From Sulfobacillus sp. (GTDB lineage: Bacteria; Bacillota; Sulfobacillia; Sulfobacillales; Sulfobacillaceae), in assembly GCA_027309085.1 (NCBI GenBank), contig DAIDDL010000023.1:1-64000 (forward strand): a stretch of DNA of 64,000 nt, in the 5' to 3' direction. The position numbers and the translations under genes were made by a program. Below, in pieces: positions 56,603 to 63,027 of this stretch (position 1 is the stretch's first letter; the number at the start of each line of letters is the position of its first letter). The notes under the pieces are model-generated. The model ran no database searches. It had not been told where the DNA came from and saw only the letters and a program-made list of their open reading frames with translations.

Positions 56603-58099
56603 TCAGTGGCCGCTCGGCCCTGGCTGCTTGGGGGGAGAGACCACAAAAATTGACCAGCCATTATTGTATCCTGCCAGAATCTGATGGTTGCCAATGGCCT
56701 CCAACGGGTAAGGCGCAGAGGGGGTGGACTGGGATTCAGGAGGAGGAGTGATAAGCTGCCATAGTGAGGTCTGCTTGACCCAGCGGTAAATAGAGCCCGT
56801 GGGGGAACCGTAAAGCAAATCCCCATTGGGGGCCGAGGCCAGCTGACCGATGCCGACCTGCTGACCAGTGGTTGGCACCGCAATAGCCGTCCACTTTTGA
56901 GTATGGGGAGAATAGCGCACCAGCACAGGATTGGTCAGGTTGACTAGGGCGGAGATCCCGCCGGCCGGTGACATGACCATGCTTGAGGGAGCTGCTCCCA
57001 AAGCAGGGAAGTGGGGCAGCTCTTGCCAGCTCTGGCCGCCATTGACCGTCTCGAGCACGGGCCCGATTCCCGTTCCGGAAATTGGCACCAGGGCCACTGC
57101 AATTTGCTGGGCGTTGCTAGGATTAATTGCGAAATCCTCGGCTTGCCACCGGTTGGTGTTGAGCGTCATCATAGACGTCCACGACACTCCATTGGCACTG
57201 GTTTCCAGAGTGCCATTGACAATAGCCCAATATTGATGGCCCATAGCCACGACATTGGAAAAAGTGGTCGGCCCCAGACCCCAAGGCACCCAGCTGATGC
57301 CGCCATTGTGGCTGACATAGCCGGAGCTTAGCCCGGAGGGGTTTTCTTCCGCCAGCAGCACAGAACGGGGGCTGGCAGGCAGAGCCGATACCGTGTCAAT
57401 GACATTGCCCGCCGCATTGCCCGGAGACTCTGTCCAGTAGGCCTTGCTCTGGCCATGGAGCACGGCCCACGTGTTGTTGTGGGTCAGGTAAATGAGAGAA
57501 CCGGCGGCCGCAAATGATGAGATAGGCGTGGGCAGGCCGGAAACCCACGTCCCTTGCAGGGGCTGAGCCTGGGGGTGGGGAGTGATGACATCGCCGCCCG
57601 TGGTGACATCCCCCACAAAATCATACACGGGGACCCCCTGATTGAAGAGAGTGCCCCCCACAACATCACGCCGGTTGTCCAGTTTCAGGACCAGCGAAGT
57701 GGCTGTAATCTGCCCCACGGTGAATTTTCCCGCCAACGTCAGAGCATGCCCCGTGGGCACGGCCATGGGGTAACTGGCGTACACGGGCGACATGCCGATG
57801 ACCTGAACCTGCTGGTTGCTCAATTGGGAGAGAATATTCTTGACAGAGGCAGACAGTGCCGGGGCGGTCAGGGTTTTCTGACCGGTCGAGGTGTGGCTCT
57901 GCCCTGCCGGATGGATTTGCGGCGCAATGAGCAACGCTGCAACAGATGCCGCAGCTGCGCTCAAGAAAATCTGACGGCTCCGAGCTTTTCTCCGGATCGC
58001 TTTTTTCGGGTGCCAGTCTGGTTTAAAGTATAAGCCCATCCCGTCCGCCATAGCCCGGTCCATGCGCTCCCCCACTGTGTCATGACGGTCTTCGCTCAT
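56603..58099 (-). CDS. Membrane-anchored beta-propeller protein, putative anti-sigma factor
   Basis: A 498-residue single-pass protein. It has a short, charged cytoplasmic tail (1-43; DRHDTVGERMDRAMADGMGL), one TM helix (about 44-60, FLSAAAASVAALLIAP) and a large outside region with BNR/Ycf48-like repeats (SHNGGISWVPWG, SANGVSWTSM, TVNGGQSWQELPHF), likely a beta-propeller. Its start overlaps the stop of the ECF sigma gene (ATGA). Small cytoplasmic tails after an ECF gene usually hold the sigma-binding part, so an anti-sigma role is inferred; the tail has no clear ZAS motif. The propeller may sense an extracellular ligand or wall state. Confidence 0.72.
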   Translation of the reverse strand: MSEDRHDTVGERMDRAMADGMGLYFKPDWHPKKAIRRKARSRQIFLSAAAASVAALLIAPQIHPAGQSHTSTGQKTLTAPALSASVKNILSQLSNQQVQVIGMSPVYASYPMAVPTGHALTLAGKFTVGQITATSLVLKLDNRRDVVGGTLFNQGVPVYDFVGDVTTGGDVITPHPQAQPLQGTWVSGLPTPISSFAAAGSLIYLTHNNTWAVLHGQSKAYWTESPGNAAGNVIDTVSALPASPRSVLLAEENPSGLSSGYVSHNGGISWVPWGLGPTTFSNVVAMGHQYWAIVNGTLETSANGVSWTSMMTLNTNRWQAEDFAINPSNAQQIAVALVPISGTGIGPVLETVNGGQSWQELPHFPALGAAPSSMVMSPAGGISALVNLTNPVLVRYSPHTQKWTAIAVPTTGQQVGIGQLASAPNGDLLYGSPTGSIYRWVKQTSLWQLITPPPESQSTPSAPYPLEAIGNHQILAGYNNGWSIFVVSPPKQPGPSGH

Positions 58100-58638
58100 A
58101 ACAATCCCTCCTTCCATATGGGTTCTAGCAAAGGACGCAAGTGCTGGCGCGCACGGTACAGGCGTGTCTTTACCACTTGCTCAGTTACTCCTAAAGCAGA
58201 TGCCGTCTCTTTTAACGACCGATCCATGTAATAAAAGAGCAAGATGCATTGCCGTTCCACGACACCCAGTTTCATTACAGCATCCAAGACATTCACATCA
58301 TCCAAGAGAAGGGGAACCTCATCGACAGACGCCTGCGTGACCTCGAGAATATCGGTCGGATCCTCGGGGTGGCGTTTATAATAGCGCATGCGGTCGCGGC
58401 AGAGATTAGTGATGGTGTGAAAGAGCAAAGCGGGACTCAGCGTGTCAGCTCCATTGCGCTCCGTGTGCCGCCATAGCCGCACAAAAGCTTCTTGCGCGGT
58501 ATCCTCGGCGTCATCCTTCACATGCAGCGTGACAAATGCATACCGCAGGGCCCGGTCACCATATTCCTCCATAAATTGAGTAAACCGCCGTTCTTCCTGT
58601 GCGTCCGTGAGAGGCCACTCCTTGTTATCGTGTCTCAT
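58096..58638 (-). CDS. ECF-type RNA polymerase sigma factor
   Basis: A 180-residue sigma-70 family protein with only regions 2 and 4. Region 2 reads YGDRALRYAFVTLHVKDDAEDTAQEAFVRLW; region 4 reads GVVERQCILLFYYMDRSLKE, then GVTEQVVKTRLYRARQHL. The gene starts at an ATG with no ribosome site, 7 bases after an ECF-like promoter (TGTAAC-N17-CGTT), suggesting an autoregulated, nearly leaderless message. It is translationally coupled to the membrane-anchored beta-propeller protein. Confidence 0.9.
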   Translation of the reverse strand: MRHDNKEWPLTDAQEERRFTQFMEEYGDRALRYAFVTLHVKDDAEDTAQEAFVRLWRHTERNGADTLSPALLFHTITNLCRDRMRYYKRHPEDPTDILEVTQASVDEVPLLLDDVNVLDAVMKLGVVERQCILLFYYMDRSLKETASALGVTEQVVKTRLYRARQHLRPLLEPIWKEGLL

Positions 58639-58645
58639 TCAGCAT

Positions 58646-58672
58646 AACGCTAAAACCCCGGTCAAGGTTACA
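58646..58672 (-). promoter_or_regulatory. ECF-type promoter before the sigma gene
   Basis: On the minus strand TGTAAC (58672-58667), 17 bases, then CGTT (58649-58646) match the AAC...CGT pattern of ECF promoters (for example SigW TGAAAC-N16-CGTA). The ATG at 58638 is only 7 bases after CGTT, so transcription would begin at or next to the start codon. Autoregulation is inferred. Confidence 0.5.
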
Positions 58673-58811: not shown

Positions 58812-59546
58812 CTAATTTCCGAGAATATAGACAGTGACCGGCTGCACACCGAAATTGGACACTGTATGGGAGCCGTCATTCATGAAGATGTCAATGCGGT
58901 TCCCCTGAATAGCTCCGCCCGTGTCCATAGCTTGCCCCAAAAATCCTCCGCTGGGCAATGATGCATCCTGGTAACCCTGGACGTAGACGGTGGACTTCAG
59001 GGGAATGATTCTGGGGTCCACGGCAATCATCCCTGACTGCAGAGGCTGGCCAAACGCGTCGACAGGTCCGTAGGGATAGTTATCTTGAAGGCTGGGCCCG
59101 TAAGCCGTCGCGGTCATGTGATACACAGCCATGACCGGTTTCCCGTCAATGGTCTGGGTACTATAGCTGGCGGCCGGGGAGCCCGCGTTTTCCGATGGCG
59201 AATACGCCGGTGTCAGATTGAATCCCGACAAGATATCCTGCCACGTTGCGGCGTCGGCCACTCCCGTCACCGGAAGACCGCTGGCTTGCTGAAAATCTTT
59301 GACACCCTGTTCGGTTTTTGGGCCGAAGACGCCATCAGCAGGTCCTACGGCGGAGTAGCCCAGGTCTTGAAGGTCCGCCTGCAGGGTCATGACCCAATGC
59401 CCTTGATCTGAATAGGATAGTTGTTGCTGCATGGCCGGATGCAGCGCCGTGAGACTAGATAGTGTGACACTTTGCGCCCAGGACGGGGCCGACAACAGCA
59501 AAGTCCCACTCATGGCAGACAATGCTACCGCTACAGATTTCCACAT
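58812..59546 (-). CDS. Secreted peptidoglycan-binding and 3D-domain protein
   Basis: A 244-residue wall protein. A signal peptide (1-24, ending APSWA-QS) is followed by a PG_binding_1 domain (about 48-110; LQADLQDLGYSAVGPADGVFG) and a 3D domain (about 135-243) with MTATAYG, GMIAVDPRIIPLKSTVYVQG and AMDTGGAIQGNRIDIFM. The three Asp of the 3D family are present (AVDPR, MDTGG, RIDIF). Such proteins are lytic transglycosylases (MltA-like fold) acting in germination, stationary phase or Rpf-like resuscitation. Its mRNA carries a c-di-AMP riboswitch, a common pairing for wall hydrolases. The start has GAGGAGG upstream. Confidence 0.9.
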   Translation of the reverse strand: MWKSVAVALSAMSGTLLLSAPSWAQSVTLSSLTALHPAMQQQLSYSDQGHWVMTLQADLQDLGYSAVGPADGVFGPKTEQGVKDFQQASGLPVTGVADAATWQDILSGFNLTPAYSPSENAGSPAASYSTQTIDGKPVMAVYHMTATAYGPSLQDNYPYGPVDAFGQPLQSGMIAVDPRIIPLKSTVYVQGYQDASLPSGGFLGQAMDTGGAIQGNRIDIFMNDGSHTVSNFGVQPVTVYILGN

Positions 59547-60672: not shown

Positions 60673-60942
60673 ATGACGGACTTAACTCGTGAGATGGTTT
60701 TTATGGCGGCGGCCATGACGGTGGGTAACGTAGAAGAGATGAAAGAACATTTGGAGCGGGCACGGGCACTGGGGGCCACACCAGCGGACATGGAAGAGAT
60801 TTTGACAATGGTCCGTGGCGAGCGCCTCAAGGTCACTCTGGAAAGAGACAAGGAAGCCGAATCTCTCCTGCGGGCCGAATCCTTGGATTTGCCTGTCATG
60901 ACGGGCGGGAGCTCTTGTGGCTGCGGTTCAGGCAATTGCTGA
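60673..60942 (+). CDS. Small AhpD-like protein with a Cys-rich tail, first gene of the ars operon
   Basis: An 89-residue protein. Its first ~50 residues (LTREMVFMAAAMTVGNVEEM, then RARALGATPADMEEILTMVR) resemble one half of the AhpD/carboxymuconolactone-decarboxylase fold, but the CxxC active site is absent. The tail SSCGCGSGNC places Cys82, 84 and 89 close together, as expected for binding As(III) or another soft metal. Family is tentative. It is 23 bases before arsD and shares its operon, so a role as an arsenite carrier or sensor is inferred. Confidence 0.7.
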   Translation: MTDLTREMVFMAAAMTVGNVEEMKEHLERARALGATPADMEEILTMVRGERLKVTLERDKEAESLLRAESLDLPVMTGGSSCGCGSGNC

Positions 60943-60965
60943 TGGGACAAGGAGGCGCTTCTACC

Positions 60966-61265
60966 ATGACCGTGCATATTTATGATCCTGAAATGTGCTG
61001 TACAACGGGGGTCTGCGGCCCGTCCGCCGACCCTGAAATGCTCCGGGTGGCCCAGTTGGTGGCAGGGTTGACACGTGAAGGCCACAAGGTGGTGCGCCAT
61101 ATGCTGAGCCAGGACGCGGCAGCCTTCGCAGCTGATCCCCAGGTCTACCAGCAGCTCTTAGCCCACGGTCCAAACAGCCTCCCGATTGTTACGGTAGACA
61201 ATGCGGTCTGCACAATAGGACGGTATCCGGAGCTTGAGGATATCCGTGCCATGCAGGGGGCGTAA
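60966..61265 (+). CDS. arsD: Arsenite metallochaperone ArsD
   Basis: Delivers As(III) or Sb(III) to ArsA. The 99-residue protein has the key Cys11-Cys12 and Cys17 (MCCTTGVCGP), equivalent to Cys12, 13, 18 of the E. coli plasmid R773 protein. The C-terminal CxxC-type pairs of that ArsD are absent; they are not essential. The ATG at 60966 has AAGGAGGCG upstream. It is 3 bases before arsA1. Confidence 0.93.
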   Translation: MTVHIYDPEMCCTTGVCGPSADPEMLRVAQLVAGLTREGHKVVRHMLSQDAAAFAADPQVYQQLLAHGPNSLPIVTVDNAVCTIGRYPELEDIRAMQGA

Positions 61266-61268
61266 CGC

Positions 61269-62144
61269 ATGACGCAGTACCTGTTTTTCTCTGGCAAGGG
61301 CGGGGTAGGCAAGACCTCACTGTCCTCGGCGGCTGCGGTGCGGCTCGCGCGCCAAGGGGCACGGACACTTTTGGTGACAACGGACCCGGCATCCAATCTT
61401 GGCGACGTGTTTGGGCAGGCGGTCGGGCTTGACGCCCGGCCAGTAGCCGGGGTCTCCGGCCTGTTCATTCAGGAGATCAATCCTGAAGCAGCCCTGCAGT
61501 CATACAAGGACAGGGCTCTGGCACCCATGCGCGCGTTATTTCCCGAAGAAATCGTACGGGCCGCCGAAGAGAAAATGAGCGGCCCCTGTACGGAAGAAGT
61601 CGCGACATTTGACCAGTTCATTGCCTGTATGCAAGAACCTGACTACGACTGGGTGGTGTTTGACACGGCCCCCACCGGGCACACTCTCCGACTCTTGGAA
61701 CTGCCTGGCAGCTGGAGCGTGCATATTACCGAGAGCGCGGCGGGGAGCGGGCAGACCTGTATGGGTCCGGTAGAATCCCTCACGGCATCGCAGAAAGAAT
61801 ACGACGCCGCACTAAAGGCCCTGCAAAGCGAATCGCACTCCACCTTTGTCTTTGTGACCCAGCCATCAAAACTGTCCATTGACGAGATGATGCGCGCGTC
61901 AGAAGAACTGAAGAAGCTGGGGATTCACCACCAGACCGCCGTGCTGAATGGAGTCATTCCTGAGGAGGAGCGCGTCCATCCATATTCACAGAGACGGTGG
62001 CGGCGCCAGATGCCGTTCGTTGAATCTCTCCCGCAAGAATTCTCTGGATCAGTGGGGATGATGCCCTTGTATGCGGATGAAATCAAAGGCATCGAAATGC
62101 TCGAACGTGTGGGGAGGGATCTGGATGATGCCATTCACCTATGA
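61269..62144 (+). CDS. arsA1: Arsenite-transporting ATPase, N-terminal-half type (ArsA1)
   Basis: A 291-residue P-loop ATPase equal to half of the fused ArsA of plasmid R773. Walker A is GKGGVGKTS (9-17); VFDTAPTGHTLRLLELP is the DTAPTGH signal loop. Cys107 (GPCTEEVATF) and Cys164 (QTCMGPVESL) match Cys113 and Cys172 of the A1 half, two of the three metal ligands. The third is supplied by the other protein. It overlaps arsA2 by 20 bp. With ArsB it forms an ATP-driven As(III) pump. Confidence 0.93.
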   Translation: MTQYLFFSGKGGVGKTSLSSAAAVRLARQGARTLLVTTDPASNLGDVFGQAVGLDARPVAGVSGLFIQEINPEAALQSYKDRALAPMRALFPEEIVRAAEEKMSGPCTEEVATFDQFIACMQEPDYDWVVFDTAPTGHTLRLLELPGSWSVHITESAAGSGQTCMGPVESLTASQKEYDAALKALQSESHSTFVFVTQPSKLSIDEMMRASEELKKLGIHHQTAVLNGVIPEEERVHPYSQRRWRRQMPFVESLPQEFSGSVGMMPLYADEIKGIEMLERVGRDLDDAIHL

Positions 62145-63027
62145 GAAGCTTCCGGAGGAACTGCTGGTGCCCCTGGGCGGCCGCCCCCGGAAGGTGTTTT
62201 TTGCCGGCAAGGGCGGGGTCGGAAAAACTACGCTGGCCTGTACTGCTGCTCTATTTGCAGCCGAACGCGGCAACCGGACCGTGCTGGTGACTACAGACCC
62301 CGCGTCCCATATTGGGGAAGTGTTCGGGGTAGAGGTAGGGCCTGCCCTCAGGAAGATTCCGGATACTGATTTGTGGCTCGTGCGCATTGATCCCAAGGCG
62401 GCCTTGGAGAACTACCAGCAAGCGGTCCTGGCCACGGTTCCAGACGACGCAGAAACCCAGGGGCGGGTGCGCGAGGAGCTGAATTCGCCTTGCACCGAAG
62501 AGGTCGCCGTATTCCAGCACTTCCTGGATTTTGTGCTGGATGATGCGTTTGATGTCACAGTATTTGACACGGCCCCGACAGGCCACACTGTGCGCCTCTT
62601 GCAGCTGGCCTGGGATTACGCGGGGGAACTGGCAGGCAAGACGGCTCTCAGCAGCGAGACGGCAGCCTTGGATGCCGCGCAGCTTGCGCGCATGCAAGCT
62701 GCGATCCAAACCCTCCAGGATCCCGGCGCCACATCCATGCTTTTTGTAACCTTGCCGGAAATGACGCCGATTGCCGAGATGGAGCGGGCGATAGCGGACT
62801 TGGGAAGAACCGGCATTGCCACCCAAGCCATCATCGTGAATGAGGTGCTCCCTGAAGAAGCTGCGACCAGCCCCTTGTTTGGCAAGCGGCTCGCTAAACA
62901 GATGATGTATATTGATGATCTGCGCCCGCGTCATCCGGCTCAGGCCTTGGCCACAGCGCCGCTGCAGGACGACGAGATTTTGGGAGTGGCGCTATTGCAG
63001 CAGTTTGGGGACCAGCTTATGCGCTAG
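62125..63027 (+). CDS. arsA2: Arsenite-transporting ATPase, C-terminal-half type (ArsA2)
   Basis: A 300-residue partner of ArsA1. Walker A is GKGGVGKTT (28-36), followed by VFDTAPTGHTVRLLQL. Cys123 (SPCTEEVAVFQHF) matches Cys422 of R773 ArsA. The region that holds the second Cys in A1 has none (TALSSETAALDAA), exactly as in the A2 half. The two genes therefore look like a split ArsA that assembles one metal site. The ATG at 62125 has GGAGGG 7 bases upstream, inside arsA1. Confidence 0.93.
   Translation: MMPFTYEKLPEELLVPLGGRPRKVFFAGKGGVGKTTLACTAALFAAERGNRTVLVTTDPASHIGEVFGVEVGPALRKIPDTDLWLVRIDPKAALENYQQAVLATVPDDAETQGRVREELNSPCTEEVAVFQHFLDFVLDDAFDVTVFDTAPTGHTVRLLQLAWDYAGELAGKTALSSETAALDAAQLARMQAAIQTLQDPGATSMLFVTLPEMTPIAEMERAIADLGRTGIATQAIIVNEVLPEEAATSPLFGKRLAKQMMYIDDLRPRHPAQALATAPLQDDEILGVALLQQFGDQLMR

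Follow-up and report, generated by a model that had tools for sequence, protein, structure and literature searches.

A probable membrane-sensing ECF sigma/anti-sigma switch of Sulfobacillales with a beta-propeller partner and a predicted ACG start codon

Background

In Streptomyces, the ECF sigma gene sigR starts at a conserved non-canonical codon behind a strong ribosome-binding site, in which a buried canonical codon misled annotation; it is autoregulated and overlaps its anti-sigma gene rsrA by ATGA, with the anti-sigma Shine-Dalgarno (SD) sequence lying inside sigR (PMC5472188). The GTC start is repressed by IF3, RsrA was shown to be in excess, and replacing GTC with a canonical codon gave constitutive activity (Feeney et al. 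2017, PMC5472188). The Sulfobacillales locus described here resembles sigR-rsrA in all features of this layout, but differs in its codons (GTC, or GTT in two species, versus ACG or CTG), in its partner (RsrA, a zinc redox anti-sigma factor, versus a cysteine-free membrane propeller) and in its regulon (oxidative stress versus a predicted envelope response); likewise, IF3 repression and anti-sigma excess, demonstrated for sigR, are predicted from sequence in Sulfobacillales (PMC5472188).

Other described systems share parts of this design. The SigW/RsiW and SigV/RsiV switches of Bacillota are autoregulated, have a single-pass anti-sigma factor with a short cytoplasmic part and an external sensor, and control envelope regulons, and the profile of the sigma factor studied here matches SigW. 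However, RsiW has a zinc anti-sigma domain and the external domain of RsiV is of another kind, and neither is known to include a propeller (PMC7406223, PMC6066255). The class II anti-sigma factor CnrY (PMC7406223) may be similar in its short tail with about two predicted helices and no zinc motif, although the likeness comes with no sequence link and the Sulfobacillales tail is modelled at low confidence. Ycf48 (PDB 2xbg, 5ojr) is the closest solved fold to the external domain, at ~13-16% identity, but is a Photosystem II assembly factor that has no sigma partner. Finally, infC, which encodes IF3, is a further case of a rare natural near-cognate start used for control, there in IF3 autoregulation and not in a sigma switch.

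In this study, we analyzed a stretch of 64,000 nucleotides from Sulfobacillus sp. (contig DAIDDL010000023.1, hereafter the window), in which a sequence-only reading had proposed an autoregulated unit of an ECF sigma factor and a membrane-anchored extracellular propeller, and compared the locus across Sulfobacillales and the wider phylum.

Results

The gene pair and its distribution

The two genes proposed by that reading are real, lie on the minus strand, and their open reading frames overlap by ATGA at 58096-58099:

58096..58608, minus strand: ECF sigma factor gene, 170 aa counted from ACG (Sigma70_r2 and r4_2 domains, start-codon alignment)
56603..58099, minus strand: membrane propeller protein gene, probable anti-sigma factor, 498 aa (alignment, Pfam, AF2, Foldseek)

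Both Sigma70_r2 and r4_2 score above the Pfam cut-offs in the sigma frame, and the SigW and SigL structures are matches of its profile; as is typical of ECF factors, the protein has the sigma2 and sigma4 domains only and stays below ~200 aa. The propeller gene, whose closest named relative is in Sulfobacillus thermotolerans Kr1 (82% identity), occurs in 40 of 42 sampled Sulfobacillales genomes, as three families (f1 to f3), and the two genomes in which it is missing have completeness values of only 61% and 71%. The remaining 59 genomes of the 101-genome sample lack it, and when a profile built from 33 members was searched against 398 genomes of the phylum, the matches outside the order were all weak and of a generic propeller kind. 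Every locus whose sequence extends far enough has the sigma gene immediately upstream, and most members of f1 and f3 are coupled to it by ATGA or GTGA. We found no report, in the open-licence literature, of propeller or BNR anti-sigma factors, of Sulfobacillus ECF factors, or of this sigma/propeller pairing.

At a further locus, L154, an ECF-like sigma4 region lies within an open frame of just 131 aa with no sigma2, which may represent a disrupted or frameshifted sigma gene. In the window, the next same-strand gene upstream (58812-59546, minus strand) is presumably an exported protein, resembling peptidoglycan-binding and 3D-domain proteins, and would fit an envelope neighborhood; further on, 60915-63027 (plus strand) holds a probable arsenic cluster, made up of a pair of tandem ArsA-type ATPase genes and a gene that resembles arsD.

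Promoter and regulon

The ECF-like promoter noted previously, TGTAAC-N17-CGTT (equivalently TGTAACC-N16-CGTT), spans 58646-58672 and combines the AAC-type -35 and CGT-type -10 elements expected of ECF promoters:

58666..58672, minus strand: -35 element TGTAACC of the autoregulatory ECF promoter (exact match, conserved in 38/39 loci)
58646..58649, minus strand: -10 element CGTT (motif match, locus comparison)

In all but one of 39 loci, GTAAC-N16/17-[C/A]GTT is found upstream of sigma. Because the elements are conserved, with identical spacing in all loci but one, while the spacer and the surroundings vary, we regard the promoter as a real, selected element.

A genome-wide search for the motif, as the earlier reading had suggested, was carried out by pattern matching in 12 genomes and returned 71 matches to TGTAACC-N16-CGTT versus 20 to the reversed motif. 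The 65 unique sites include 37 that lie within 130 nt upstream of an SD-started open reading frame, and among these frames 27 have a signal or transmembrane start and 16 a lipobox; in the reversed-motif control (19 sites) only 2 precede frames, none with a signal or transmembrane start or a lipobox. One lipoprotein family has retained the motif upstream throughout the genus and also outside it, and most of the genus has it in front of a YkuD L,D-transpeptidase gene (as CGTAACC-N16-CGTT in the genome that contains the window). Propeller proteins with 3-9 Asp boxes make up several of the other targets, and one of them (L060) matches PSII_BNR. Matches without a credible downstream gene (L062/L093, L064/L082) are probably chance or coding. 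Assigned by motif and orthology only, the predicted regulon output is an envelope program of lipoproteins, L,D-transpeptidase and further propellers, and the proposal of an autoregulated sigma/membrane-propeller unit gains support from the order-wide gene pair, its promoter and this regulon of exported proteins.

Two observations stand beside this set. A multi-copy lipoprotein family that has no Pfam match (L193-L222; G000 C140, C130, C93, C121, C161) carries the sigma motif upstream of some copies and lacks it at others, and MoxR-type ATPase genes in two genera (L106, L120) also have the motif upstream.

A conserved ACG at the start of the sigma gene

Downstream of the promoter, the window and its relatives share a ribosome-binding site and an unusual first codon:

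58618..58623, minus strand: SD sequence AAGGAG of the sigma gene (conserved in relatives)
58606..58608, minus strand: predicted ACG start codon of the sigma gene (only invariant third base among 55 conserved degenerate columns)

In the window, 9 nt separate AAGGAG from the in-frame ACG; relatives mostly have AAAGGGG, followed 7-9 nt later by ACG in frame, and the SD energies are ~-8 to -17 kcal/mol. Across 26 aligned genes the codon is ACG in 25 and GTG in one (L021), and CTG occupies the equivalent position relative to the SD in a clade of five genomes. In a comparison of 55 alignment columns whose amino acid is conserved and has degenerate codons, only the ACG column showed no variation at the third base; second in uniformity came a column with GTG in 19/26. 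Codon 1 sits 25-65 nt after the -10 element. As in sigR, a conserved codon other than ATG, GTG or TTG is thus found at SD distance, and the alignments make it most likely that the gene has a leader and starts at ACG. Other ECF-type genes of the window's genome that have a recognizable start use an SD and a canonical codon.

The brake, in contrast to sigma, is predicted to have a strong start. In the window the anti-sigma gene starts with AAGGAGG-N7-ATG, and most relatives have an SD-like stretch and ATG or GTG at the sigma stop. Since the predicted sigma start is weak, whereas the anti-sigma gene combines a strong SD with a canonical codon, an excess of anti-sigma over sigma is predicted. For IF3, the first and second bases of the start codon must form Watson-Crick pairs (PMC10158994), and discrimination against ACG and CTG is therefore expected. 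Across the order, infC itself appears to start at ATC, ATA or ATT, as expected where IF3 polices start codons, which suggests IF3 autoregulation in this lineage; at the infC loci L179-L192 these codons lie behind a strong SD, e.g. AAGGAGGG.

The ACG or CTG start is a probable translational throttle of sigma. It could instead be a genuine start that carries no regulatory meaning, an ancestral accident tolerated where little sigma is needed; low expression alone may suffice to explain it, and GTG not only replaces ACG in L021 but also seems to be used by family f2 and by L045. We consider such an accident unlikely, given that two families have kept ACG, that one clade replaces it with CTG, and that no member showed ATG as its likely start, a pattern that suggests selection for weak initiation; moreover, sigR demonstrates that regulation can require a codon of this kind (PMC5472188).

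The propeller protein as a probable anti-sigma factor

The partner protein is predicted to consist of a basic cytoplasmic tail, one transmembrane segment, a low-confidence linker, a small beta domain and a beta-propeller (AF2 model, pLDDT 82):

57971..58099, minus strand: cytoplasmic tail, residues 1-43, candidate sigma-binding part (alignment, AF2 model)
57914..57970, minus strand: transmembrane segment, ~residues 44-62 (sequence; the model helix runs to residue 56)
56630..57805, minus strand: external small beta domain and beta-propeller, ~residues 99-490 (AF2 model, Foldseek)
58107..58113, minus strand: strong SD AAGGAGG within the sigma gene, serving the anti-sigma gene, whose ATG follows after 7 nt (sequence)

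The single transmembrane segment after a ~43-residue tail had been recognized from the sequence alone, and basic residues before it point to a cytoplasmic N-terminus. The suggested BNR/Ycf48-like outside part is also borne out: Ycf48 propellers are the best solved-fold match of the model (Foldseek E 1.5e-11) and the protein has a weak profile match to Ycf48, although it falls below the curated cut-off for Pfam BNR, which is matched in 26/33 members. As the same reading had noted, the classical Hx3Cx2C zinc motif is absent, and the window protein has no cysteine at all, nor do 27 of the other 32 family members. No anti-sigma Pfam domain was matched in any of the 33 members, and a class I zinc anti-sigma domain was rejected on these two grounds; class I domains do include zinc-free members (PMC7406223), and the absent motif does not by itself rule that class out.

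In the tail, D14 and P31 are invariant, and the model places helices at residues 8-21 and from 31, at low confidence (pLDDT ~43-61). Co-operonic with sigma, with a single transmembrane segment and a cytoplasmic N-terminus, the protein has the layout of a membrane anti-sigma factor, and from layout and conservation this is its probable role; binding of the tail to sigma, and sensing by the propeller of something outside the cell, are plausible. It might alternatively be a co-transcribed envelope protein under the control of sigma, as would suit its lack of a known anti-sigma domain and the presence of other propeller proteins in the regulon. That role seems to us rather improbable in view of the obligate ATGA/GTGA coupling in most f1 and f3 members, the conserved cytoplasmic helix with its two invariant residues, and a single-pass arrangement typical of anti-sigma factors.

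Other candidate starts of the sigma gene

More than half of the loci have an in-frame TTG, GTG or ATG 6-9 nt upstream of ACG, which could support initiation at some level in those loci, and automatic annotation would pick such codons; a second candidate is the internal ATG 58572 (codon 13 in the window). A start at either place is nevertheless quite improbable. The upstream codons partly coincide with the SD or directly adjoin it, an arrangement that also misled sigR annotation (PMC5472188), and are missing in the window, where the codon is TGG; in 11/31 loci there is no in-frame ATG, GTG or TTG anywhere between promoter and codon 1. The internal ATG (+36) comes after the invariant F9 and F12, is not conserved and lacks a well-placed SD, and neither type of start accounts for the invariant ACG.

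A leaderless or near-leaderless mRNA starting at ATG 58638 with no ribosome site, as the sequence-only reading had it, was rejected as highly improbable: this ATG does follow the -10 element by 7 nt, a spacing that would allow transcription to start there, but it is not conserved (the closest relative, L002, has TTG there), many relatives have in-frame stops between promoter and codon 1 or no start at that place, and the conserved SD with ACG (or CTG/GTG) follows downstream. RNA editing of ACG to AUG occurs in plant organelles, and we considered it unlikely in bacteria.

Discussion

The gene pair, its promoter, the regulon motif, the conserved ACG with its SD and the anti-sigma SD can be read directly from the compared genomes. 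We consider it likely that they form an autoregulated membrane-sensing ECF sigma/anti-sigma switch of Sulfobacillales, in which a near-cognate start keeps sigma below its membrane anti-sigma factor. In such a switch, the single-pass propeller protein would tether sigma at the membrane through its ~43-residue cytoplasmic tail, while the outside Ycf48-type propeller probably monitors the condition of the envelope. Upon a signal, the anti-sigma factor would be lost, probably by regulated proteolysis, and the freed sigma would transcribe its own operon from TGTAACC-N16-CGTT, in positive autoregulation, as well as genes for exported lipoproteins, L,D-transpeptidase and further propeller proteins. 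Sigma would be translated from ACG behind a good SD, with IF3 expected to repress this codon, and the anti-sigma factor from a strong SD and a canonical codon, so that the brake would be in excess.

An order-specific ECF switch of a generally known type is real here; what is unusual is the Ycf48-fold external domain and the conserved ACG/CTG start. The open-licence literature yielded no bacterial gene reported to start naturally at ACG, and standard gene finders would mis-start this sigma gene. On balance, we lean towards a second, independently evolved and order-wide case of an ECF sigma factor held below its anti-sigma factor by a near-cognate start, with new codons (ACG/CTG) and an unrelated sensor. 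The order-wide conservation, together with the CTG replacement in one clade, amounts to a natural experiment suggesting selected weak initiation at a sigma/anti-sigma switch. These results provide an order-wide promoter and a predicted regulon for little-studied acidophiles, and would tie an external propeller to envelope-stress control; if the proposal is true, weak sigma start codons would be a recurring design rule of sigma/anti-sigma switches.
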